Positions 1 through 10,239 of a stretch of 10,239 nucleotides of DNA are shown here, piece after piece. The stretch's first letter is position 1. Each line of letters begins with the position of its first letter. Both the position numbers and the translations under genes were made by a program. The stretch lies in the NCBI GenBank assembly GCA_947442905.1, contig CANEWV010000030.1:1-10239 (forward strand), in the 5' to 3' direction. Under the pieces are notes generated by a model. It made no database searches. It saw nothing but the letters and a program-made list of their open reading frames with translations, and had not been told where the DNA came from. The DNA is from Chitinophagaceae bacterium (GTDB lineage Bacteria; Bacteroidota; Bacteroidia; Chitinophagales; Chitinophagaceae).

Positions 1-2197
1 ACAAGTTTTTCGCTTGGTTATTATAAACATCAACAGATAGAGTGATACGATCTTTTAAAATGCTTAAATCCATACCAAGGTTTCTGCTCTCGTTGGACTC
101 CCATTGAAGCGCTTCATTTACTAAACCAGCAGAGTAATACGCATTGATTGCTTGATTGTTGATGCCGTAGTATAAGCCACCATCGTTTCTGAAAGTTGTT
201 AAAAATAAATAGTCGTTGATTCGGTTGTTACCAACATTACCATATCCTGCTCTAAATTTAAGATCAGAAATAAACGAATTATCTTTTAAGAAGTTTTCAT
301 TTTTAGCTCTCCATGCAATAGATCCTGAAGGAAAAACACCCCACTGCTTACCTGGCGCAAATTTTGAAGCACCGTCAGCTCTTGCATTAAGTGTTACGTA
401 GTATTTATTTTGATACGCATAATTGATTCTACTAAAGAACGACATATTGGTATATCTCGTTTTATTTACACGAGGATAACCCGTAAATGAAAGTCCACTT
501 CCTAAATTTCCAAATGCATTATCTGGTGTCGTGAAATTTGCAAATCCTCTAACCAGTTGCGTATATGATTCTGTTCTAAAATCGTATGTTTCCTGTCCAA
601 CTAAAAAGTCAAAATCATGCTTGCCTTTGTACTTATTAACTGAATACGTTAATACGTTAGAATTTGTAATTGTTTTACGAATGGCTGTATCAAGCTGTGC
701 AATTGGTTTTCTAGAACCTGATATCATCGAATATGGCGTAATAGAATCACTGAACTGACGATCCACTAATTTAAATTGATCAACACCAACGGTAGATTTG
801 AAAGTTAAATTCTTAGCAATATTGTAAGTTACGCTTAAGGCAATATTTCCAACTGTTGTTGACTTTCTTCTATACTCAGCATCCGCTAGTGTAATAGGAT
901 TGATAAGGTTAAGGCCATTACCAACGTTAGGATCTGCTAAAGGATCTGGATCGTCTAAATCTTGGTTACTAGATAAGAAAGGTCTATACTTAACAGCGTT
1001 ACGAAGTCTTGAAAAAGAAGATCCTTGATCAGATGATACACCTGCGCCATTTACTTCGGTTTGCGTATAACGCGTTGTTAAAGCGGCTTTTAATTTATTA
1101 CTGAACTTATAATCAGCACTAAAATTTAATAAGTCTCTTTTATAAGTAGAATTTAAAATAACAGCCTTATCATCGTTTCGGGTATACCCAAAATTGTAGG
1201 TTAAATTTTTAACGCCACCTGATGCAGTAATGTTATGCGTTTGTGCTACACCCGTGCGGCCCATTACTTCGTCTTGCCAATCAACAACATTTACATTGTT
1301 ATAATTTTTTAAAGTATCCCAAGTGGTACCAAAATTTCTAACAAAAGTAGCACTGTCTGTACTTGATCCTCTAGATCTTTCTGACTGATACATAACATAA
1401 TCAGCAGGCGATAAAACACCTAATTTTTTAGCGAGCAACTTAACGCCAACAAAGCCATTATAGCTTACTTGTAATTTTCCAGGCTTACCTCTTTTTGTAG
1501 TGATTACAATAACGCCATTCGCACCACGTGCACCATAAATAGCGGTTGCAGCAGCGTCTTTTAATACGTCAATGGTTTGAATATTTTGAGGCGCAATGGC
1601 AGATAATCCATTTTCAACCTGAACACCATCCACAATATATAATGGAGAGTTGTCACCAGTAATAGACATACCGCCTCTTACCCTCACTCTAACATCTGCA
1701 TCTGGAGAACCTTCGGCAGTTGAAGCAGTTACCCCTGCCAGACGGCCATTTAACGCCTCAGCAGCAGAGTTAACCGGAATATCTTTTAAATCTTTTGCAC
1801 TCACACTAGCAATAGATGCTAATACGTTTTTGCGTTTTACCGTTTGGTACCCAATCACCACCACTTCTTCAGTTTCTGAAGCAGTAGAATTGAGTGAAAC
1901 ATTGATGGTAGATTTATTGTTAACAGCAACTGTTTGATCGGAATAACCCACATAAGAAAAGGTTAAACTACTTTTGCCATCTTGCAATACAATTTTGAAC
2001 TGGCCATTTTTATCGGTAACAGTACCTGCTTCTTTTCCGCCTTTAACCCTAACACTTACGCCTTCTAAAGGAAGGTCGTTAGAAGTAACTTTACCTTTTA
2101 CTTCAAGTTTACCGGTTTGGGCAATAGAAAGATTAGGATTTAAATTTAGTACCCCTACCAATAATAATAGGTATAGGCATACACTTTTCATACGCAT
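1..2197 (-). CDS. SusC/RagA-type TonB-dependent outer-membrane receptor, partial (3' end beyond left edge)
   Basis: Outer-membrane, TonB-energised importer for oligosaccharides or similar nutrients; the family normally works with a SusD-like surface lipoprotein, whose gene would lie to the left, outside the window. About 732 codons are visible, against a usual 1000-1100, and the frame stays open to the edge. Domains in order: signal peptide (about 1-27, ending SIAQ), a carboxypeptidase-regulatory-like beta-sandwich (about 30-103), the TonB-box-like segment EEVVVIGY (110-117), then the plug with RVRVRGG (170-176), PLYIVDG (185-191) and KDAAATAIYGARGANGV (213-229), all SusC hallmarks. The rest is beta-barrel. 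There is no STN domain between signal peptide and sandwich, so coupling to a FecR/ECF-sigma pair is not suggested. The start at 2197 is an ATG; a second in-frame ATG lies at 2191 (ATGCGTATGAAA), and I prefer the first because it adds a positive charge to the signal peptide. Substrate cannot be read from the sequence. Confidence 0.95.
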   Translation of the reverse strand, partial: MRMKSVCLYLLLLVGVLNLNPNLSIAQTGKLEVKGKVTSNDLPLEGVSVRVKGGKEAGTVTDKNGQFKIVLQDGKSSLTFSYVGYSDQTVAVNNKSTINVSLNSTASETEEVVVIGYQTVKRKNVLASIASVSAKDLKDIPVNSAAEALNGRLAGVTASTAEGSPDADVRVRVRGGMSITGDNSPLYIVDGVQVENGLSAIAPQNIQTIDVLKDAAATAIYGARGANGVIVITTKRGKPGKLQVSYNGFVGVKLLAKKLGVLSPADYVMYQSERSRGSSTDSATFVRNFGTTWDTLKNYNNVNVVDWQDEVMGRTGVAQTHNITASGGVKNLTYNFGYTRNDDKAVILNSTYKRDLLNFSADYKFSNKLKAALTTRYTQTEVNGAGVSSDQGSSFSRLRNAVKYRPFLSSNQDLDDPDPLADPNVGNGLNLINPITLADAEYRRKSTTVGNIALSVTYNIAKNLTFKSTVGVDQFKLVDRQFSDSITPYSMISGSRKPIAQLDTAIRKTITNSNVLTYSVNKYKGKHDFDFLVGQETYDFRTESYTQLVRGFANFTTPDNAFGNLGSGLSFTGYPRVNKTRYTNMSFFSRINYAYQNKYYVTLNARADGASKFAPGKQWGVFPSGSIAWRAKNENFLKDNSFISDLKFRAGYGNVGNNRINDYLFLTTFRNDGGLYYGINNQAINAYYSAGLVNEALQWESNESRNLGMDLSILKDRITLSVDVYNNQAKNL

Positions 2198-2211
2198 ACG
2201 TAAATGATTTA

Positions 2212-2303
2212 GCAATCGTTAAATTATTAAAAATCGTAGCCCAATGCTACACCCATCTAGACAATCTTTACGCCAAAAACGATTATTTTTCTACGCAATC
2301 GTT
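2212..2303 (-). repeat. Direct repeat pair AACGATTGC in the SusC leader (candidate regulator half-sites)
   Basis: The nonamer AACGATTGC (plus-strand GCAATCGTT) is exact at 2212-2220 and 2295-2303, spaced 83 bp apart. The distal copy also forms an inverted pair with ACGATT at plus 2279-2284 (ACGATT, 12 bp, AATCGT). The hexamer core around ATCG resembles half-sites of LacI-type regulators only loosely. Function is inferred; a coincidence of short AT-rich words is possible. Confidence 0.35.
2236..2250 (-). other. Small perfect hairpin in the SusC leader
   Basis: On the minus strand GTAGC, loop ATTGG, GCTAC gives a perfect 5-bp stem with a 5-nt loop, extendable by one G-U pair, followed directly by GATTTTTAATAATTT. 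It lies 39-53 nt upstream of the SusC start. It could be a weak intrinsic terminator or attenuator for read-through from the DUF1080 gene, or a 5'-UTR stem protecting the susC message. The short stem makes strong termination unlikely. Confidence 0.3.
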
Positions 2304-2331: not shown

Positions 2332-4455
2332 TTATAGGGGCAGTATCCTGATATTTCTAAAACGAACCACATCTCCATGGCCTAAAAAGCCAATATGACC
2401 TGAAGTTCGCTTTAATCCAGGATGCTCGTTATGATCCATTGTTCCGTTTATTGAAGCTTCTTTAATATCAGCATCTGTAATCGTTTCGCCATTTAAGATC
2501 ACTTTTACACGGGTTCCCTTTACCACAACGACTTCCTCATTCCACTCGCCGGTAGGCCTTAGAAAGCCCCTTCTAGCCGGCACAACGCCATATATAGAGC
2601 CGTGGTACTGGTAAGGCTTCAAGTTCTTATAGATGTCCGCATCATTATCGAGTATTTGCAGCTCCATTCCTACGTAAGCGGCATCGCCAGTTAGTGGCGC
2701 TCGAATACCAAGCCCATTATTTGCACCAGGGGTTAATTGGAACTCAAAACGGTATTCAAAATCGGAATACTCGTCTTTGGTATATAAATTTCCGCCGCCT
2801 GCGCTTTTTGGATTCACCATAATGGACCCGTCTTGCAAAAGATAGCCGGCTTTATTGCCCACCCAGTTGTCTAAATGGGTCCCGTCAAATAATTGCTTAA
2901 ACCCTTGTTGCTTTTCCAAATCTGAAAGTTTGGTTGGCTCATTACTAGGAAGCTCTCTAATATAAATGTTGCGGTAAGCAACATAAGTGCCATGTGCTTG
3001 TAATTCAATTTGCTCTTTTACAAAAATGGGGAGTGTGCGGTCCCAATAATTTTCTAGCACCACTTTATCTGTTACAAGCACACCATTTAAATAAACCGTT
3101 ACCTGCGCTCCGCGCATGATGATGTGAAAAGTGTTCCAGCTACCAATTTTATTATCTGCTACCACTTTTGGATGGCGCTCATTTTTTTGATTGTTGTACA
3201 GTCCACCAGAACCCACCTGCGCGCCTACTTCACGTCTACTGGTATCCCAAATTTGTACTTGTGGTGTGCCGCGTAAATAAATACCCGCGTCTCCTTTTTC
3301 GGTGATTTTCCAATCTACAAAAAGTTCAAAATCGCCAAACTGTTTTTGCGTACATAAATTATCGCCATGTCCTGTAAAAACAAGAAGACCATCTTTTACC
3401 ACCCAGTCAGACTTTATTTTTTCATCTGCTTTTGATTGCGCATCAATCAGTTGTTGTGCGGTCATTTTTGAGCGGGCAATAGGATTGGCAACAAGGCCTT
3501 TCCATCCGGTTAAATCTGCTCCGTTAAATAAATTTTCGAAACCATAATCATATGGCATGGCCTTAATATGATAAGCCAATTTACCAGCTACAATAGCACT
3601 ATCCTCCCCTCTTAATAAAGCAAGTGCTTTTTGTACAACAGGTCTTATCATCGGACCTTTAAAATCTGGATTGACAAGTGCTAATTTAGCCACTACAAGG
3701 GCCGCATCAGATTGTAGCCCTGGCGTTTCTAAATATTTAGCGGCAAACATGAGCGCGCCTAGTTTATTTACTTTGCCAGCCTCTATAATGATTCCTTTTT
3801 GAGCCGTTGGGCTTTTTGCCGTTTCCATTTGATCTTGCAAATCCAACAACCTCTGTACTGGATTTACTGCCTTGGCTGGCGTTAATGCAACTGCCTGCAT
3901 TGCGGGCAACGCAGTGTTTGAATGCTTAATAGCTGCTTCTATGGCAAGCTTGCTAGCTGGTGAAGCTTTTGAAAGTGCAGCTTCTAGTGCAGCGAGTGAT
4001 TTTTTTGTATGAAGTGTAGCAAGTGACATAGCCGCTACACCAGCAAATGTTGGAACCTCAATATAACTGGCAATTGTTTTAACGGCTTTATCAGATCCTA
4101 CATAACCAAGTCTTTCAATTAAATAAGAACGCACTAAAATATTTTTTTCTTGTACATCTTTAAGTAGATCCAAGGCGTTGATTAAAACACTTGCCGCTTT
4201 ATTGGCTAAGTCTTTATTAGTAGCTGCCGCATGTAAATAGGCATCTAGCTCATACATCGCTTTTACATGTGGTGCATTAGCGCCAGCTTCTGTACTATTA
4301 AATACATTAAAAAACGGTGTCCAATCTGCTTTTTGCCAAGCCTTCATTTTTGCAACGGTCACCTCTACAGTTGCAGTATTACCTTGCGCAAATGAATTAC
4401 TACTGCTAACTAAAAAAAAGGCTGCTATAATAAAAGCTAAAAATATTTTTTTCAT
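2332..4455 (-). CDS. Secreted helical-repeat protein with two tandem DUF1080 (3-keto-disaccharide hydrolase) domains
   Basis: Seen: 707 residues with a Sec signal peptide (1-23, SNSFAQ cleavage, no lipobox), an Ala-rich alpha-helical HEAT/armadillo-like region (about 60-300), then two DUF1080 (PF06439) modules. Module 1 (about 306-500) opens GFENLFNGADLTGW and contains DAGIYLRG and GSWNTFHI. Module 2 (about 518-706) opens GFKQLFDGTHLDNW and contains GLGIRAP, YQYHGSIYGV, GEWNEE and HIGFLGHG. DUF1080 proteins are concanavalin-like beta-sandwich folds; family members are known to cleave 3-keto-glycosides made by a partner Gfo/Idh/MocA dehydrogenase. Such a dehydrogenase gene lies 29 bp upstream on the same strand, supporting that role in the periplasm. 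The helical region may be a scaffold or partner-binding arm. Which module is catalytic is not known; module 1 carries an insertion-like stretch (322-348) and module 2 is closer to the typical stand-alone form. Start ATG at 4455 directly precedes a Lys-rich signal peptide. Confidence 0.9.
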   Translation of the reverse strand: MKKIFLAFIIAAFFLVSSSNSFAQGNTATVEVTVAKMKAWQKADWTPFFNVFNSTEAGANAPHVKAMYELDAYLHAAATNKDLANKAASVLINALDLLKDVQEKNILVRSYLIERLGYVGSDKAVKTIASYIEVPTFAGVAAMSLATLHTKKSLAALEAALSKASPASKLAIEAAIKHSNTALPAMQAVALTPAKAVNPVQRLLDLQDQMETAKSPTAQKGIIIEAGKVNKLGALMFAAKYLETPGLQSDAALVVAKLALVNPDFKGPMIRPVVQKALALLRGEDSAIVAGKLAYHIKAMPYDYGFENLFNGADLTGWKGLVANPIARSKMTAQQLIDAQSKADEKIKSDWVVKDGLLVFTGHGDNLCTQKQFGDFELFVDWKITEKGDAGIYLRGTPQVQIWDTSRREVGAQVGSGGLYNNQKNERHPKVVADNKIGSWNTFHIIMRGAQVTVYLNGVLVTDKVVLENYWDRTLPIFVKEQIELQAHGTYVAYRNIYIRELPSNEPTKLSDLEKQQGFKQLFDGTHLDNWVGNKAGYLLQDGSIMVNPKSAGGGNLYTKDEYSDFEYRFEFQLTPGANNGLGIRAPLTGDAAYVGMELQILDNDADIYKNLKPYQYHGSIYGVVPARRGFLRPTGEWNEEVVVVKGTRVKVILNGETITDADIKEASINGTMDHNEHPGLKRTSGHIGFLGHGDVVRFRNIRILPL

Positions 4456-4484
4456 GGTGGTTGATTTGTCGAAAATTAAAAATA

Positions 4485-5747
4485 CTAGATGCCGTAGGGT
4501 GCACGCATAGGTGGATTGATCATTTTATTGGCTTCGTCATCACCAATAAACACCTGCGCCTCAGGATCAAAATTTAATGTGCGCCCTAACTGCAACGCAA
4601 TTTTACCGAGGTTAATAATGGTGCAAGACCTATGCCCATTGGACTCATTAAGTGCAAATGGGGTTCTATATTTTACAGATTCTAAAAAGTCAGTTACTTG
4701 TGGAACAGGATCTGGAAGTAACGCTAACTTTTCTTTTAAATTAGGTATGGTTGATTTGAAACCAGCAAACAATTTACCTTCTGGACCTTCAATGTAAGCT
4801 ACCGATTCATCTTTGGCTTCACCATCTAAAATAATTTTACAACCATCGGCATAGGTGTAAATAATTTTTCGGAATGTGCCGCAAGCATCTGGGTGTTGCT
4901 GATCTGCATCTACTTCTACTTTTACTGGACTGGTATGATCCTTGCCTAAAAAATATTGAATAGGGTCTAAATAATGCTGACCCATATCTCCAAGTCCACC
5001 ACCATCATAATCCCAATAACCTCTAAATGTTCCATGCACGCGGTGTGCGTTATAAGGCTTGTATGGAGCAGGGCCTAGCCATCTGTCATAATCTAATGTT
5101 TGGGGAACAGGCTGCGCTTCAAGTCCTGTTTTTCCTACCCAATAAAACTTCCAGTCAAAGCCTGTGTGCTTGCTAACCGTTACTGTTAATGGCCAACCGA
5201 GCATGCCAGATTCTACAAGTTTTTTTATGGGCTTCACGGTTGTTTTCATACCGTAAAACTCATCTTGAAATCTGAACCATGTATTTAAACGAAACATTCT
5301 ACCATATTGCTTTACTGCCTCTACAACCCGCTTACCTTCACCAATGGTTCTGGTCATTGGCTTTTCACACCAAATATCTTTTCCAGCTTTTGCTGCCTCA
5401 ATAGACATAATGCCATGCCAGTGCGGCGGTGTTGCAATGTGTACGATATCTACTTCAGGCATTGCAATGAGTTCATGATAATCTAGCATTGTTTTTACAC
5501 CACTGCCTACCATTTTAGCGGCAGCTGCTAAATGCGTTTGATCTACATCACATAATGCAACCACTCGGGTACCCGCAAGGCCTATATGACCTCTACCCAT
5601 TCCGCCAAGGCCAATAATGCCTTTGGTTAATTGATCACTAGGGGCTATAAACCCTCTACCTAAAACTTGTCTCGGAATAATTGTTACCCCTGCAGCTATA
5701 GCAGCGGTACTGCGTAAAAATTTACGTCTTGAATTGGATTGTGACAT
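4485..5747 (-). CDS. Tat-exported Gfo/Idh/MocA-family NAD(P)-dependent oxidoreductase
   Basis: A 420-residue sugar oxidoreductase, probably periplasmic. Numbered from the chosen ATG (5747): Tat signal SRRKFLRS (6-13) with hydrophobic stretch AAIAAGV; Rossmann nucleotide-binding motif GLGGMG (46-51); acidic cofactor end CDVD (66-69); catalytic-lysine motif CEKPMT (127-132, Lys129); and the family's D-x3-H pair in LGDMGQHYLD (Asp254, His258). The pattern WLGPAPYKPYN (223-233) is typical of the Tat-exported Bacteroidota/Planctomycetota subgroup. The frame extends to a TTG codon at 5789, but the ATG at 5747 puts the twin-arginine motif at the N-terminus and is preferred. It is followed 29 bp later by the tandem-DUF1080 gene, so the pair probably forms an operon: this enzyme would oxidise the C3 hydroxyl of a glycoside and DUF1080 would cleave the 3-keto product. 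The specific reaction is inferred from family and neighbour; other members act on inositols, amino sugars or as GH109-like glycosidases. Confidence 0.92.
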   Translation of the reverse strand: MSQSNSRRKFLRSTAAIAAGVTIIPRQVLGRGFIAPSDQLTKGIIGLGGMGRGHIGLAGTRVVALCDVDQTHLAAAAKMVGSGVKTMLDYHELIAMPEVDIVHIATPPHWHGIMSIEAAKAGKDIWCEKPMTRTIGEGKRVVEAVKQYGRMFRLNTWFRFQDEFYGMKTTVKPIKKLVESGMLGWPLTVTVSKHTGFDWKFYWVGKTGLEAQPVPQTLDYDRWLGPAPYKPYNAHRVHGTFRGYWDYDGGGLGDMGQHYLDPIQYFLGKDHTSPVKVEVDADQQHPDACGTFRKIIYTYADGCKIILDGEAKDESVAYIEGPEGKLFAGFKSTIPNLKEKLALLPDPVPQVTDFLESVKYRTPFALNESNGHRSCTIINLGKIALQLGRTLNFDPEAQVFIGDDEANKMINPPMRAPYGI

Positions 5748-5774: not shown

Positions 5775-5839
5775 ATAGAAGTCAGCCAATACTATAACAG
5801 CAGTTATTAGCTAATTTTACCCATAAATACGCCTGTATT

Positions 5840-6301
5840 ATGAAAAACGCAAACACGGTAAGCCTTCAGCAAATCAAGGATTCTCATATGCCCTACAGAA
5901 ACGCCAATATTAGACACAAAGAAAAACTTACTAAACTAGATAGATTAGCACTTTGGATCACCAAAAAAGTGGGGTCGATGGGTTTTTTTATGCTTGTTTT
6001 TGCATGGACCGCAATTTGGTTAAGCTGGAATACTTTAGCACCTGCTCATTTGAGATTTGATCCATTCCCTGCGTTTGTACTCTGGTTATTTATTTCAAAC
6101 ATGCTTCAAATATTTTTGATGCCGCTCATTATGGTTGGGCAAAATTTACAATCGAAGCATTCGGAAATTAGGGCAGAAGAAGATTACTTAATCAATAAAA
6201 AAGCAGAGCTAGAAATAGAAACGATTTTAGTGCATTTAGAAAATCAAAATAAATTGATCCTTCAAATTTTAGCAGATATAGAAAAGGAGCAGAAGCATTA
6301 A
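5840..6301 (+). CDS. DUF1003 family small membrane protein
   Basis: A 153-residue protein, the only plus-strand gene in the window. The DUF1003 (PF06210) signature is clear: KVGSMGFF (43-50) entering the first membrane helix (about 45-64), WNTLAPAHLRFDPFPAF (63-79), a second helix (about 76-98), then PLIMVGQN (95-102) and a charged helical, probably coiled-coil tail (about 104-151) containing EEDYLINKKAELEIE. Topology is two helices with a short loop; its biochemical function is unknown in the literature I can recall. The ATG at 5840 is preferred; an internal Met17 (5888) would still keep the whole domain. A TAATTTTA word at 5812-5819 is a near match to a -7 box but lacks a -33 partner. It stands divergent from the oxidoreductase and converges on the esterase with 1 nt between stop codons, so it probably has its own promoter and is not functionally part of the sugar operons. 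Confidence 0.9.
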   Translation: MKNANTVSLQQIKDSHMPYRNANIRHKEKLTKLDRLALWITKKVGSMGFFMLVFAWTAIWLSWNTLAPAHLRFDPFPAFVLWLFISNMLQIFLMPLIMVGQNLQSKHSEIRAEEDYLINKKAELEIETILVHLENQNKLILQILADIEKEQKH

Positions 6302-6302
6302 T

Positions 6303-7226
6303 TTACTTTCCTGCAATCATTTTATTGACTTGCATCCAAGCGGCAACCCTATCAAACCAACTATCGGGCGTAGTGGCATTTTGCAAGCCAAAACCATGAC
6401 CGCCATTTTGGTAAATGTGCATTTCTGTTTTTACGTTATTTTTTAAAAGGGCCTGGTAAAACCGAATGCTGTTTTCTACAGGAACCGATTTATCATCAGA
6501 AGCGTGCACTAAAAAAGTAGGCGGCGTTTGAGCAGTTACTTGAAGCTCCGATGAAAACAATTTAATTTTTGCAGCGGCCGCGTTTTTACCGAGTAAATTA
6601 TCTCTTGAGCCTTTATGGCAAATTGTGGAGTCCATGCTAATAACAGGGTATACTAAAATGCCAAAGTCAGGTCGTAAATTAGTGAGGCTCGTATTTTCGA
6701 TATAAGATTCAGAAAATTTTGTAATGCCTGTGCTCGCTAAATGACCCCCTGCCGAAAACCCAAGCACACCAAGCATATTAGGGTTAATATCAAAACTAGC
6801 TGCCCTATCTCTTACGAGTTTAATGGTTTGCTGCAAATCTTGAAGTGGTACCATTTCTTTATTTGTCATGCAACTATCAAAAGGTAAGCGGTACTTTACA
6901 ACAAAAACAGTAACACCTATTTTATTAAACGCCCCTGCTACTTCTGTTCCCTCATGCCCACTCGCAAGTCTTGCATAACCACCACCCGGACATACAATTA
7001 ATGCAGTTTTGTTGACGTCTTGCTTTGCTGGTTTAAAGACCGTAACCGAAGGGCTTGTGACGTTTGCAATAACCGTTTTGCCGGATGCATTTTTACTAAC
7101 CATTTCTTCTTTATTACACGGAAGTGCATTAGGTACAGGGCCTTCATAAATAGAAAACTCTTGCTGTGCCATAGTTAAAGAAGATGCTGACATAAAAAGG
7201 AGGATTAACAAATATTTGATACGCAT
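6303..7226 (-). CDS. Secreted alpha/beta-hydrolase (carbohydrate esterase-like), last gene of the esterase/transporter cluster
   Basis: A 307-residue serine hydrolase with a Sec signal peptide (1-20, LTMA/QQ). Visible fold landmarks: oxyanion loop CPGGGY (79-84), nucleophile elbow GFSAGGH (156-162, Ser158), acid loop HASDDKSVP (241-249, probably Asp245) and catalytic His277 in NGGHGFG. The full triad is present. The N-terminal segment (about 50-80, VTSPSVTVFKP then ALIVCPGGGY) and KYRLP (111-115) place it with the Bacteroidota/Planctomycetota hydrolases often annotated as acetyl-xylan esterase-like or polyhydroxybutyrate depolymerase-like. Likely role: periplasmic removal of acetyl or other acyl groups from glycan fragments; the exact ester is unknown. 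Its ATG overlaps the transporter's TAA by one base (TAATG), indicating translational coupling. It differs clearly in sequence from the other esterase at 8488-9411, so the two probably act on different linkages. No terminator is visible after its stop codon, which abuts the DUF1003 gene. Confidence 0.9.
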   Translation of the reverse strand: MRIKYLLILLFMSASSLTMAQQEFSIYEGPVPNALPCNKEEMVSKNASGKTVIANVTSPSVTVFKPAKQDVNKTALIVCPGGGYARLASGHEGTEVAGAFNKIGVTVFVVKYRLPFDSCMTNKEMVPLQDLQQTIKLVRDRAASFDINPNMLGVLGFSAGGHLASTGITKFSESYIENTSLTNLRPDFGILVYPVISMDSTICHKGSRDNLLGKNAAAAKIKLFSSELQVTAQTPPTFLVHASDDKSVPVENSIRFYQALLKNNVKTEMHIYQNGGHGFGLQNATTPDSWFDRVAAWMQVNKMIAGK

Positions 7227-8479
7227 TATCGTTTTATTTTTTCTATTCTTCCACTAAAAATAAATAAAACTGCAATACCAAGTGGTACGAGTGTAGCTGC
7301 TAATATAAAAAATGGCGTGTAAGATGTTTTGGTAAGTGCTGGCACCATCCATGTAGTAGCAAGCACACCCATATTAGCTGCAAATCCACCAAGCCCAGAT
7401 AGTGTACCTACTGCTTTACCCGATAAATAGTCGGAAGGCATCGTTTGTATCGTTCCAATGATTATTTGAAATCCAAAGAGTGCAAAAAATATAGCGATCA
7501 TGGCATAAGATGGATTATTGAGTCCAATTATAGTGAGTAGTGCAGGAAACATAAATAAACCGCCCAGTAACACAATTGATTTTCTGGTTTTGGTAACGCT
7601 CCAGCCAGCTTTTAATAAACGCCCAGATAACCAACCGCCACCAATGCCACCAATCATGGCACCTACATAAGGGAACCATGCAAATGCACCAATGGCTTTA
7701 ATGTCAAAATGAAATTTATCTGCCAAATAAAGGGGAAGCCAAATTACAAACAACCACCAAATGGGATCGAGTAAAAAGCGAGATAATAAAATACTCCAGC
7801 TTTGTCTGATTTGCAAAATTTGCTTAAAAGATAGTCCTCTATCTGATGGATCTGCAGGTTGTTGACCATCCAAGATGTATTGACGCTCCTCCTCTGTTAA
7901 CCAAGGGTGCGCATCTGGTGTTTTTTTATTGATCCATAGCCATGGGATAAGCCACAATAAACCAAGTAGTCCAATTAAAATAAATGTAGCTTTCCATCCT
8001 ATAAAACCGTACAAAAAAGCAATAAGTGGCGCAGAAATTATACTACCAACAGAAGCGCCAGCATTAAAAATACCTTGCGCAAGTGCACGCTCTTTTACAG
8101 GAAACCATTCGGCATTACTTTTTGCAGCACCCGGCCAATTACCCGCTTCTCCTAAACCTAATAGTGCCCTAAAAATTGAAAAGCTCATGATACCTCTAGC
8201 AGCAGCATGAAAAGCAGCTGAAATACTCCATACCACAATGGAAACAACGAAACCAAGTCTGGTACCAATGGCATCAAATAATTTACCGCTGAGGGCCTGA
8301 CTAAACGCGTATGCAATGGTAAAACAACTGACAATAAACGCATACTCCGATTTATTCATTTGCAATTCCGATGCAATACCGGGCCACATAATGGCAAGTG
8401 CATTACGGTCTATATAATTAACAACAGTAGCAAGCCCTATCAAACTTAAAATCCACCAACGTAAGCCCTTTAATTTCAT
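7226..8479 (-). CDS. MFS transporter, hexuronate/anion:cation symporter type (ExuT-like)
   Basis: A 417-residue, roughly 12-helix inner-membrane permease of the anion:cation symporter group of the major facilitator superfamily. Marks: VVNYIDRNALAIMWP (19-33) in the first helix, the loop 2-3 motif GKLFDAIGTR (65-74), FRALLGLGEAGNWPGAAK (103-120) on helix 4, and the central cytoplasmic loop with HPWLTEEERQYI (191-202). The GEAGNWPGA stretch and the E-E-R central loop are typical of glucuronate/galacturonate permeases (ExuT) and close relatives; D-galactonate and glucarate carriers share parts of them, so the substrate is best called an acidic monosaccharide. It starts 8 bp after the upstream esterase and overlaps the next gene by 1 nt, placing it in the sulfatase-esterase cluster. 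Inference: it carries the uronic acid released in the periplasm into the cytoplasm. Enzymes of cytoplasmic uronate breakdown are not in the window. Confidence 0.9.
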   Translation of the reverse strand: MKLKGLRWWILSLIGLATVVNYIDRNALAIMWPGIASELQMNKSEYAFIVSCFTIAYAFSQALSGKLFDAIGTRLGFVVSIVVWSISAAFHAAARGIMSFSIFRALLGLGEAGNWPGAAKSNAEWFPVKERALAQGIFNAGASVGSIISAPLIAFLYGFIGWKATFILIGLLGLLWLIPWLWINKKTPDAHPWLTEEERQYILDGQQPADPSDRGLSFKQILQIRQSWSILLSRFLLDPIWWLFVIWLPLYLADKFHFDIKAIGAFAWFPYVGAMIGGIGGGWLSGRLLKAGWSVTKTRKSIVLLGGLFMFPALLTIIGLNNPSYAMIAIFFALFGFQIIIGTIQTMPSDYLSGKAVGTLSGLGGFAANMGVLATTWMVPALTKTSYTPFFILAATLVPLGIAVLFIFSGRIEKIKR

Positions 8480-8487
8480 CGCAAATT

Positions 8488-9411
8488 TTATTTTTTAAAC
8501 GCATCCAACGATTCTATAAATTTAAATATCGCTGTGTTAAGCATGGCGTTTTGATCTTTATCAAATTTACCATGAAGGCCGCCTGGTATCGTAATAAATT
8601 CTGTTTTTACACCAGCCGCAACTAGCGCAACATGGAGCGCCACTGATTCTTGATAAGGTACGGTAGGGTCAGCATCACCATGTACAATAAATACAGGCGG
8701 GCTTGTTTTTTTAACCCAATGGATAGGCGATACTGATTTGATAAAACTTTGATCCTCTTTTTTTGATCCTAACCAATTGGTAGCCGACTTACTTTTAATG
8801 TAAGGACCATATGCCCAATCATTTACGTCTGCGATACCATACTTGTCAATAATAGCGGCCACATTAATATTTTCGACACCACTACAATTGTTATCAAAAA
8901 TGTGATTGTTTTGAAGTAGTCCACCCATCAATGCCAGATGACCTCCAGCAGATCCGCCCATAATAATAATTTTATTGGGATCAAGATGAAGTGCTTTTGC
9001 ATTTTTAATTAAATAAATAAGCGCACAACGCGTGTCTTCGATAGCAGCTGGCGCTGTTGCTTGGCTAGTTAATCTATATTCAATATTCGCCACTGCAAAC
9101 CCTGCTTTAAAATAAGGCGCAAACCCACCTTGCTCTTCTTTAGCACCATGATTCCATCCGCCACCATGAATATTAATGATAACAGGATTTAGGGGACCAT
9201 TTGATGGAGGCAAATACAAATCCATACGACCATCCCAATCATTTACCTTAGCATACACTACATTTAATTGTGAGGTAAAGCCTGCTGGCACTGCAACTGT
9301 TTTAAACTTAGAAGAATCAATTACAATAGGGGTAACGGCAGCTGTTGCTTGCGCAAATCCGCTCGTACAATAAAATGCCAATACAAATCCGATGATTGTT
9401 GCCCTTTTCAT
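8488..9411 (-). CDS. Secreted alpha/beta-hydrolase of the feruloyl/acetyl-esterase (BD-FAE-like) type
   Basis: A 307-residue serine hydrolase with a Sec signal peptide (about 1-20, GFAQA cleavage region). Landmarks: LDLYLPP-like strand MDLYLPPS (63-70), oxyanion motif HGGGW (82-86), EYRL (111-114), nucleophile elbow GGSAGGH (152-158, Ser154), acid loop HGDADPTVP (244-252, probably Asp248) and His280 in GGLHGKF. The triad is complete. HGGGW with GGSAGGH and the DxxVP acid loop is typical of the esterase_lipase/BD-FAE group that removes acetyl or feruloyl groups from plant polysaccharides; lipases and peptidases of the same superfamily are less likely in this setting. It follows the sulfatase by 12 bp and precedes the transporter by 8 bp, so co-transcription is very likely. 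Substrate is inferred only from context. Start ATG 9411 directly precedes MKRATIIGF, a good signal-peptide n-region. Confidence 0.9.
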   Translation of the reverse strand: MKRATIIGFVLAFYCTSGFAQATAAVTPIVIDSSKFKTVAVPAGFTSQLNVVYAKVNDWDGRMDLYLPPSNGPLNPVIINIHGGGWNHGAKEEQGGFAPYFKAGFAVANIEYRLTSQATAPAAIEDTRCALIYLIKNAKALHLDPNKIIIMGGSAGGHLALMGGLLQNNHIFDNNCSGVENINVAAIIDKYGIADVNDWAYGPYIKSKSATNWLGSKKEDQSFIKSVSPIHWVKKTSPPVFIVHGDADPTVPYQESVALHVALVAAGVKTEFITIPGGLHGKFDKDQNAMLNTAIFKFIESLDAFKK

Positions 9412-9423
9412 AAACTTATTGAT

Positions 9424-10239
9424 TTAATTTTTTCCTTCTTTTTTTGCTTTTACTTTAGTAGCATGACGTCCGCTGCCATCGCCGTTATCCAAATAACCAC
9501 CTGCTGGATTTAATCCGTCTAATACTTTTTGTAATTTATCTTTTTCTGCTTTATTCGTATCATCTACCGCCACTTCTTTTTCTTCAAATGGCGCATTGCG
9601 CATGTCAAATAAATTTCCTGCTCTATTTAATTTCCAATTGGCACTTCTAACGTACCAATCATTACCAAGTTCGGTAAAAATCCAATCTCTTGGTGTGCCT
9701 ACACTACCTTTTAATTGGTAAGCAAAGCTTTTACCATCCAAAACATTGTTGGTTGGAAGTGGGGCTCCAGCTAGCTCGGCAAACGTTGGAATAAAATCGG
9801 TAGCATCAATTAAATCTTTAGAAACAATGCCTCTTTTAATTGCGTTTGGCCAATTCACAATTAATGGAACCAAACTACCACCTTCTGTCATTGTACCTTT
9901 TTTACCAACAATTTTTTTACCATTAACGGTACCAATATTTGCTGCCTGACCAGCAGTGCCATTGTCTCCCATAAAAACAATGATGGTATTTTCTCTGATT
10001 TTTAAACTATCAAGTGTGCGTAAGAGTTTGCCCACTAGCTTATCCATATAATTGATATTATCAGTATATAGGGTTTTAAAATCGGTAGTACCTGGTTTTG
10101 TATCAGGCGTGGCAATAATTTCACCATGCACCTGCACCATTGAGTAATACATATAAAACGGGTCCTTGGTATGTTTTGATAAAAAGTTTTCGATATGCGT
10201 ATGCATTAGATCAGGCATATACTCATTTTCTTTTAGAAT
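9424..10239 (-). CDS. Arylsulfatase-type (S1 family) sulfatase, partial (5' end beyond right edge)
   Basis: C-terminal part of a formylglycine-dependent sulfatase; the reading frame stays open to the window edge (seven codons upstream of an internal ATG at 10218), so that ATG is not the true start. Numbered from it: DPFYMYYSMVQVHGE (19-33), the conserved central strand with a His; VFMGDNGT (81-88), containing the Asp85-Asn86 pair that binds the active-site calcium; KKGTMTEGGSLVPLIVNWP (106-124) with the substrate-binding lysine of the K-G-x-x-x-E-G-G motif; and DATDFIPTFAELAGA (138-152). The N-terminal C/S-x-P-x-R formylglycine site lies outside, so activity type cannot be confirmed. The tail is Lys-rich (KVKAKKEGKN). 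It is the first visible gene of a tight cluster with two esterases and an acidic-sugar permease, which suggests it removes sulfate from a glycan rather than from small aryl sulfates. Sulfatase subfamily and substrate cannot be assigned. Confidence 0.9.
   Translation of the reverse strand: MLKENEYMPDLMHTHIENFLSKHTKDPFYMYYSMVQVHGEIIATPDTKPGTTDFKTLYTDNINYMDKLVGKLLRTLDSLKIRENTIIVFMGDNGTAGQAANIGTVNGKKIVGKKGTMTEGGSLVPLIVNWPNAIKRGIVSKDLIDATDFIPTFAELAGAPLPTNNVLDGKSFAYQLKGSVGTPRDWIFTELGNDWYVRSANWKLNRAGNLFDMRNAPFEEKEVAVDDTNKAEKDKLQKVLDGLNPAGGYLDNGDGSGRHATKVKAKKEGKN

Follow-up and report, generated by a model that had tools for sequence, protein, structure and literature searches.

Introduction

This paper concerns two adjacent genes, one for a Gfo/Idh/MocA oxidoreductase and one for a protein with two DUF1080 (PF06439) domains, on contig CANEWV010000030.1 of a Chitinophagaceae bacterium, of which a stretch of 10,239 nt was analysed (hereafter the window, meaning that whole stretch). 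Among the closest described systems is BT2156-BT2160 of the gut bacterium Bacteroides thetaiotaomicron, where a DUF1080 protein (BT2157) and a Gfo/Idh/MocA protein (BT2158) perform the same chemistry of oxidation followed by cleavage that is proposed below, according to passages of PMC11300592. A portion of PMC9007349 likewise describes, for the lactose pathway of Caulobacter (LacABC and CCNA_01705), 3-oxidation followed by the action of a proposed periplasmic DUF1080 hydrolase, and sections of PMC10628242 describe the Agrobacterium enzyme AtOGE and the gut enzyme PuCGE, which also eliminate 3-keto-glycosides after oxidation at C3. Tandem DUF1080 proteins are represented by the BT3469 type (PDB 4jqt), which likewise has a first domain without the canonical glutamate (YQFEID) and a second domain with it.

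The pair in the window differs from each of these. Compared with BT2156-BT2160, its dehydrogenase is distant (148.8 of 750 bits) and has a PF19051 C-terminal domain, its DUF1080 protein is a tandem with a HEAT-repeat N-terminus and a first domain that lacks the glutamate, and there are two genes only. LacABC is a membrane-bound dehydrogenase and CCNA_01705 has a single DUF1080 domain, whereas AtOGE and PuCGE are Mn-dependent TIM-barrel beta-eliminases whose fold is unrelated to DUF1080. The BT3469-type chain in 4jqt has no HEAT repeats, its domain 1 keeps NSG and belongs to another subtype, and the entry is titled only a putative glycosyl hydrolase. What is distinct here, relative to the known chemistry, is the presence of HEAT repeats, the fixed pairing of one domain without glutamate and one with it, and the close coupling of the two genes as a unit. 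I found no description of a HEAT-DUF1080 protein in the literature searched, with subscription journals outside its scope. The reading that I favour, with moderate confidence, is that of a self-standing, exported two-gene unit that cleaves glycosides with the help of oxidation, set inside an otherwise ordinary uronate-glycan locus.

Results

Coupling of the two genes

In the window the oxidoreductase and DUF1080 genes are separated by only 29 bp (4456-4484), as a first-pass annotation made from the letters of the window had noticed. Related loci were taken as the best 80 of 537 matches to the DUF1080 protein, from named genomes (genera include Chitinophaga, Dyadobacter, Runella, Larkinella, Flavihumibacter and Agriterribacter), and counts over 81 refer to the alignment of this protein from the window and the 80 relatives. 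The oxidoreductase gene lies directly upstream of the DUF1080 gene, on the same strand, in 77 of the 77 testable loci: 75 by open reading frames (ORFs) and two by tblastn (L102, and L104, where only the C-terminal end of the gene is left at a contig edge), while the remaining three (L061, L062 and L079) start at a contig edge, without upstream DNA. By comparison, when the neighbours are clustered by single linkage at 35% identity, the family that comes next in frequency, one member of which is a PF07969 amidohydrolase, occurs in 19 of 80 loci. This test is one-sided, since the DUF1080 protein was the query by which all 80 loci were collected. Among 295 genomes drawn evenly from the class, the oxidoreductase had matches in five and the DUF1080 protein in five, with G022, G195, G323 and G337 common to both searches and the oxidoreductase of G001 cut by a contig edge (L021); at most six and three candidates per genome were scored in these searches, so absences are weak evidence. 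A draw of 296 genomes from the phylum adds G034 and G446, and in six of six genomes with upstream room the oxidoreductase, 58-71% identical to that of the window, precedes the DUF1080 gene. The two genes are a real unit.

Outside the window's clade the neighbours of the pair are varied, no other family exceeding 19 of 80 loci, and several of the oxidoreductases are named inositol dehydrogenases by one source (jgi), probably through automatic annotation. Both observations fit a pair that acts on inositol, a sugar acid or another non-glycoside and sits in a polysaccharide locus incidentally. However, the strongest named match of the oxidoreductase is to a glycoside 3-dehydrogenase, and the ligand-bound PF06439 structures hold 3-keto-glucose or its glycal, as their entry titles state, which makes this explanation very unlikely.

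The divergent DUF1003 gene upstream suggests a separate transcription unit beginning with the pair. Ahead of the pair, mean column identity is 93% over five sequences (the window and four relatives); scans for promoters and terminators gave 11 and 3 sites against 10.1 and 3.8 in shuffles, with no convincing promoter. The position of the DUF1003 gene is kept in four relatives (L030, L031, L033 and L034) and absent from L073.

Some variants of the arrangement were also seen. An oxidoreductase orthologue (71%) without a DUF1080 gene adjoins a GH127 gene (L144:6260-7528). L157:7958-13390, from G034, holds the pair (an oxidoreductase 57.7% identical by tblastn and a DUF1080 gene at 9220-12588) and after it another oxidoreductase match, a distant one at 28%; further Gfo and DUF1080 relatives lie upstream. 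In L050, L052, L054, L059 and L065, five of the 80 loci, the oxidoreductase is immediately preceded by a third, single DUF1080 gene with the motif VEIQIAD.

The DUF1080 protein

The 707-aa product of the second gene scores 285.7 bits against PF06439 over its whole length (cut-off 26.8), in two stretches, and in the nearest genome (G001) each domain passes the cut-off individually, at 148.3 and 147.7 bits. The first-pass annotation had called it a secreted protein with two DUF1080 domains, the latter in agreement with these scores, and had overlooked the N-terminal part: about 275 residues that are helical and form HEAT-type repeats. HEAT_2 reaches 19.0 bits in the window copy, under the cut-off of 27.7, and is clear in a Dyadobacter relative (L088, 1144 aa), at 124 bits in four stretches. 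In the predicted model (predicted local distance difference test, pLDDT, 75.8; predicted template modelling score, pTM, 0.60; 20 sequences) the chain is helical up to residue 299, and strands follow. Over the 81 sequences the mean majority share per column is 0.48 in the repeats, 0.83 in domain 1 and 0.78 in domain 2, so both domains are under strong constraint.

The two domains nevertheless differ at the family's characteristic residues. Domain 2 keeps E598, Q600, D603 and H693 in 81 of 81 sequences, fitting the E-x-Q-x-x-D motif and histidine of the family, whereas in domain 1 the histidine is kept and Q399 replaces the family glutamate, again in 81 of 81. Judging from this conservation, the glutamate, glutamine, aspartate and histidine are probably catalytic. 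The earlier proposal of oxidation followed by cleavage had looked to the survival of such residues in an alignment; they survive in domain 2, and in domain 1 the glutamate is replaced.

For comparison with single-domain members, 49 family ORFs were collected, 17 outside 200-310 aa were removed and 32 were kept, of which four repeat a gene already in the set; L139_2 and L140_1, which are unlike the family, were excluded from the profile. The glutamate of E-x-Q-x-x-D is present in all 30 remaining rows (26 distinct). When the profile was run over all ORFs, with domain matches of 100 aa or less left out, 39 of 43 one-domain ORFs had the glutamate, the four without it being a paralogue of the HEAT-domain 1 part (L014), a split partner (L128_1), L138 and a truncated ORF (L007). 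The 92 ORFs of the window's type are distinct sequences and not independent species, some genes recurring with different cut ends.

A search with domain 1 by itself returned 4187 matches, and in 120 of the best 120 the glutamate site holds glutamine. Pieces of tandem proteins account for some of these (P0241 and P0253), and others look complete at 325-340 aa and have no domain 2; two of the latter are named Bacteroidaceae (P0276, 67%; P0312, 63%). The N-terminal stretch of these stand-alone proteins resembles the end of the window's repeat region, with no HEAT match listed. Domain 1 looks like an old subtype, not a decaying copy. Matches to P0322 were found in five of 296 genomes of the phylum draw, in none of 98 of another class and in five of 295 of the window's class; no stand-alone domain 1 gene was among them, all lying in frames of at least 714 aa. 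A paralogue of the window protein at L026:8956-10479 (the same gene is in L014) has the end of the repeat region and domain 1, with Lcl_C replacing domain 2; it adjoins a ceramidase-family gene and has no oxidoreductase match within 11.3 kb.

DUF1080 domains might instead cut glycosidic bonds directly, in the manner of GH16 glycoside hydrolases, leaving the oxidoreductase a separate task such as oxidising or reducing the released sugar. Part of PMC10881899 describes a Thermogutta DUF1080 protein as an endo-glucanase that has xanthan and lichenan as substrates and a GH16-like fold, and a glucanase of the PF06439 family is also reported in text from PMC5673643. Moreover, the outsider from L140, which reads like GH16, places an E-x-D-x-x-E motif on the E-x-Q-x-x-D columns of DUF1080. 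I consider direct cutting unlikely, however, given the coupling to an oxidoreductase in every testable locus and the titles of the solved family members with ligands, which are 3-keto-glycoside eliminase/hydratase.

The predicted fold of domain 2 matches PDB entries with the same titles, and the top Foldseek match is 4jqt; the structural comparison (VIA-align) covers mainly residues 508-707. The profile search and structure prediction that the first-pass annotation had proposed for this protein agree with its assignment. Lectin folds score only about 3 Z units lower for domain 2 (ERGIC-53, 15.7), so that the fold alone is no proof of the reaction. CBM66 also scores well against domain 2 (15.6). 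These scores, the missing glutamate of domain 1 and the HEAT repeats, which typically bind proteins, would also suit a non-catalytic glycan-binding scaffold in which the repeats and two lectin-like domains hold the substrate or the oxidoreductase. A pure scaffold has no obvious need of the four invariant residues of domain 2, and I regard this explanation as quite improbable.

The oxidoreductase

The oxidoreductase ORF is 420 aa long from its ATG, or 434 aa from an upstream TTG at 5789, and scores 69.9 bits against PF01408 (cut-off 24) and 472.9 bits against PF19051 (cut-off 23.3). It has the Gfo/Idh/MocA hallmarks, namely the Rossmann GxGxxG (GLGGMG, 46-51), the lysine of EKP (128-130) and the D-x3-H pair (D254 and H258), as well as a twin-arginine motif of the S/T-R-R-x-F-L type (SRRKFL, 6-11). 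The alignment has 76 rows including the window, of which five of 350 aa or less were left out; in all 71 of those counted, R7, R8, E128, K129, P130, D254 and H258 are invariant, and F10 is kept too. The first-pass annotation had described an exported-type enzyme with these motifs intact, and both the Pfam scores and the motifs bear it out. The twin-arginine signal would direct the enzyme out of the cytoplasm.

An acidic residue at the end of the second Rossmann strand is a sign of preference for nicotinamide adenine dinucleotide (NAD) over its phosphate (NADP). Such a residue, D67, is invariant in 15 of 15 oxidoreductases and suggests that the cofactor is NAD, not NADP. An exported NAD enzyme must retain and recycle its own cofactor, and the export signal on an NAD-type enzyme hints at a tightly bound, recycled cofactor like that of glucose-fructose oxidoreductase (GFOR). 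A predicted model of the oxidoreductase was poor (pLDDT 44.5, pTM 0.37, 15 sequences) and was left unused. Its closest NCBIfam model is the BT_2158_fam glycoside 3-dehydrogenase (NF058561), matched over residues 6-301 only, and its best solved sequence is 8tdf_A, at 103.3 bits. Since the protein falls so far under the BT_2158 cut-off, I can only infer its substrate and the C3 position of oxidation.

A possible recurring design

Other tandem DUF1080 ORFs (L015, L016, L134 and L136) show the same polarity, with domain 1 lacking the canonical glutamate and domain 2 having it in four of four. Two of them, at L015:1243-4036 and L134:161-2847, are BT3469-type tandems, with YQFEID or YQVEID in domain 1 and EYQILD or EFQILD in domain 2, and both adjoin a Gfo/Idh/MocA-like gene (confirmed by Pfam in L015); the short flanks of L016 and L136 showed no such gene. 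G054 and G033, two genomes that belong to another family, encode an oxidoreductase, a DUF1080 protein with the glutamate and a second DUF1080 protein by separate genes on one strand (L155:5636-8372 and L156:5916-8646, minus strand), and in G054 the second DUF1080 protein lacks the glutamate (WQAEV). That an oxidoreductase recurs beside one DUF1080 domain with the glutamate and one without it, whether fused or separate, is a lead drawn from few independent events.

The surrounding locus

The window DNA is Bacteroidota, close to Sediminibacterium (Chitinophagaceae); the nearest genome in the comparison shares 25% of sampled 31-letter words with it, and the contig of that genome is identical to L032, from Sediminibacterium sp. 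On the minus strand the genes run sulfatase (cut by the edge), esterase, major facilitator superfamily (MFS) transporter, esterase, oxidoreductase, DUF1080 protein and SusC, with the DUF1003 gene on the plus strand before the oxidoreductase (Table 1). The SusC importer that the first-pass annotation placed next to the pair is confirmed: the 738 aa up to the window edge, where the frame stays open, reach 575.6 bits with TIGR04056, whose cut-off is 368.25.

Table 1. Features of the window, by position, strand and supporting evidence.
Feature	Position	Strand	Evidence or remark
Sulfatase, C-terminal part, edge-cut	9424..10239	-	PF00884
BD-FAE-type esterase	8488..9411	-	PF20434, 241.8 bits
MFS transporter	7226..8479	-	PF07690; nearest named model D-galactonate transporter TIGR00893, 250.9 bits (cut-off 395)
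Second BD-FAE-type esterase	6303..7226	-	PF20434, 76.2 bits; nearest named model pectin acetylesterase PaeX NF041902, 230.8 bits (cut-off 550)
DUF1003 gene	5840-6301	+	Between two minus-strand units
Gfo/Idh/MocA oxidoreductase, 420 aa, predicted exported glycoside dehydrogenase	4485..5747	-	PF01408 and PF19051
Twin-arginine signal region, SRRKFL at residues 6-11	5658..5747	-	Sequence; R7, R8, F10 in 71/71
K129 codon of EKP, predicted catalytic lysine	5361..5363	-	71/71
D254-x3-H258 codons	4974..4988	-	71/71
Secreted HEAT and 2 x PF06439 protein, 707 aa	2332..4455	-	ORF and Pfam
HEAT-type helical repeat region, residues 25-300	3556..4383	-	Weak HEAT_2 score; helical model; least conserved part
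DUF1080 domain 1, residues 301-503, without glutamate, PQVQIWD	2947..3555	-	
Q399 codon, at family glutamate position	3259..3261	-	
DUF1080 domain 2, residues 516-707, with glutamate, MELQILD	2335..2910	-	
E598 codon, domain 2	2662..2664	-	81/81
SusC/RagA-type TonB-dependent transporter, edge-cut	2..2215	-	TIGR04056

The flanks of the window were read from relatives (L030, L031, L034 and L073). Six of the 80 loci have a DUF1080 protein at least 84% identical to that of the window (L030-L034 and L073), L032 and L033 being short contigs. L034 has the gene order of the window, extended: a lyase fragment, three sulfatases, an esterase, an MFS transporter, an esterase, DUF1003, the oxidoreductase, the DUF1080 protein, SusC, a 607-aa gene and DUF4440. 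The lyase fragment, of PF05426 type, has 158 aa at the edge of the locus and is 72% identical to the G009 copy (BLAST), and the 607-aa gene is SusD-like by position, its equivalent in L031 being SusD. L031 also starts with a lyase fragment (73%), carries est1, and after SusD has a LacI regulator, a GDSL-GH28 protein and a GH88 fragment. In L073, the G009 contig, two PF05426 genes, SusC-SusD and sulfatases precede the pair, and DUF4440, GH88, a mannitol-dehydrogenase-family gene, UxaC, a PfkB kinase, 2-keto-3-deoxy-6-phosphogluconate (KDPG) aldolase, an MFS transporter, UxuA and GH20 follow it. In L030 these catabolic genes, GH88 and hexuronate catabolism among them, likewise follow the pair, with KduI and a short-chain dehydrogenase ahead of it, and its 22 kb hold no lyase. 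In this Bacteroidota metagenome-assembled genome, PSCyt1, PSCyt2/PSD1 and DUF1501 genes, of Pfam families partly named after planctomycetes, precede KduI (L030:1-5380).

The relatives thus contain a polysaccharide utilisation locus, with SusC/SusD and degradative enzymes: SusC then SusD by Pfam in L031, SusC then the 607-aa gene in L034, and SusC-SusD further upstream in G009, the window itself holding only part of SusC. Because these close relatives carry lyases and glycoside hydrolases just beyond the limits of the window, the want of such enzymes in the window is most likely an edge effect, and the absence of a glycoside hydrolase from 10 kb is no sign of its absence from the locus. The first-pass annotation, which saw no classical glycoside hydrolase or lyase in 10 kb, had supposed that the locus breaks glycosidic bonds by oxidation at C3 and then cleavage, and had advised inspecting the flanks for SusD and glycoside hydrolases. 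In the relatives SusD is present (L031), and the PF05426 lyase, GH88 and GH28 that flank the pair speak against that supposition for the locus as a whole; for the pair itself, the idea of oxidation and then cleavage gains from the coupling, the residues of domain 2 and the fold match. In the window's lineage the pair seems to be an accessory to an otherwise ordinary polysaccharide utilisation locus, whose target is most likely a sulfated, acylated, uronate-rich polysaccharide opened first by lyases. SusCD, a PF05426 lyase, sulfatases, esterases, GH88, KduI and Uxa/Uxu are common to these relatives and to ordinary Bacteroidota uronate-glycan loci, and the relatives add the oxidoreductase/DUF1080 pair. 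I gave up the idea of a pair confined to uronate loci, since the commoner neighbours in the 80 loci include no uronate gene family.

Discussion

Entry of oligosaccharides through SusCD and their stripping and cutting by sulfatases, esterases, lyases and GH88 are standard for loci of this kind, and would precede the action of the pair here. The oxidoreductase, probably carrying its own NAD, would then oxidise a ring hydroxyl of a resistant residue, by homology most likely at C3, and the HEAT-DUF1080-DUF1080 protein would cleave the activated bond by elimination and hydration, as its relatives suggest. Domain 2 is the likely catalytic site; domain 1, with glutamine for glutamate, may bind the substrate or perform a different half-reaction. 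The pair would in this way take care of residues or linkages beyond the reach of the usual enzymes of the locus.

Several observations weigh against such oxidation-assisted cleavage. Deletion of BT2157 or BT2158 caused no growth defect on raffinose-family sugars, according to an excerpt of PMC11501099, and the available part of PMC9007349 reports no lactose phenotype for ten Pedobacter DUF1080 genes, its authors citing possible redundancy. The direct endo-glucanase and xanthanase activity in PMC10881899 and the closeness of lectin folds, both discussed above, point the same way. The oxidoreductase is outside the BT_2158 equivalog, its 148.8 bits comparing with a curated cut-off of 750 for NF058561, and it also misses the cut-off of the BT_2159 model (31.4 against 650 bits). 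There is no visible electron acceptor for an exported NAD enzyme. Around its motifs domain 2 has NNG for NSG and LGHG for QDHG, unlike most single-domain members, and one genome, G359, has the oxidoreductase without a DUF1080 gene in 16 kb.

A bolder extension of the favoured reading is that the pair is a self-contained and redox-neutral glycosidase, with three active sites spread across two proteins, in which the exported oxidoreductase would oxidise the glycoside with bound NAD and regain that NAD by reducing the released keto sugar, and that the pairing of DUF1080 domains with and without the glutamate beside an oxidoreductase would be a general Bacteroidota design, fused and joined to HEAT repeats in the window, fused but free of such repeats in L015 and L134 and encoded by separate genes in L155 and L156. 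As a whole this extension is quite unlikely to hold.

PF06439 is now named 3-keto-disaccharide hydrolase, and few of its members are characterised in the literature examined. With an oxidoreductase and a two-domain DUF1080 protein that stay together, the window is a small system in which two purified proteins suffice to test how the two domains share the work. If the domain without the glutamate does real chemistry, the family name spans more than one reaction, namely two; were it a binding domain only, tandem DUF1080 proteins would be over-annotated.

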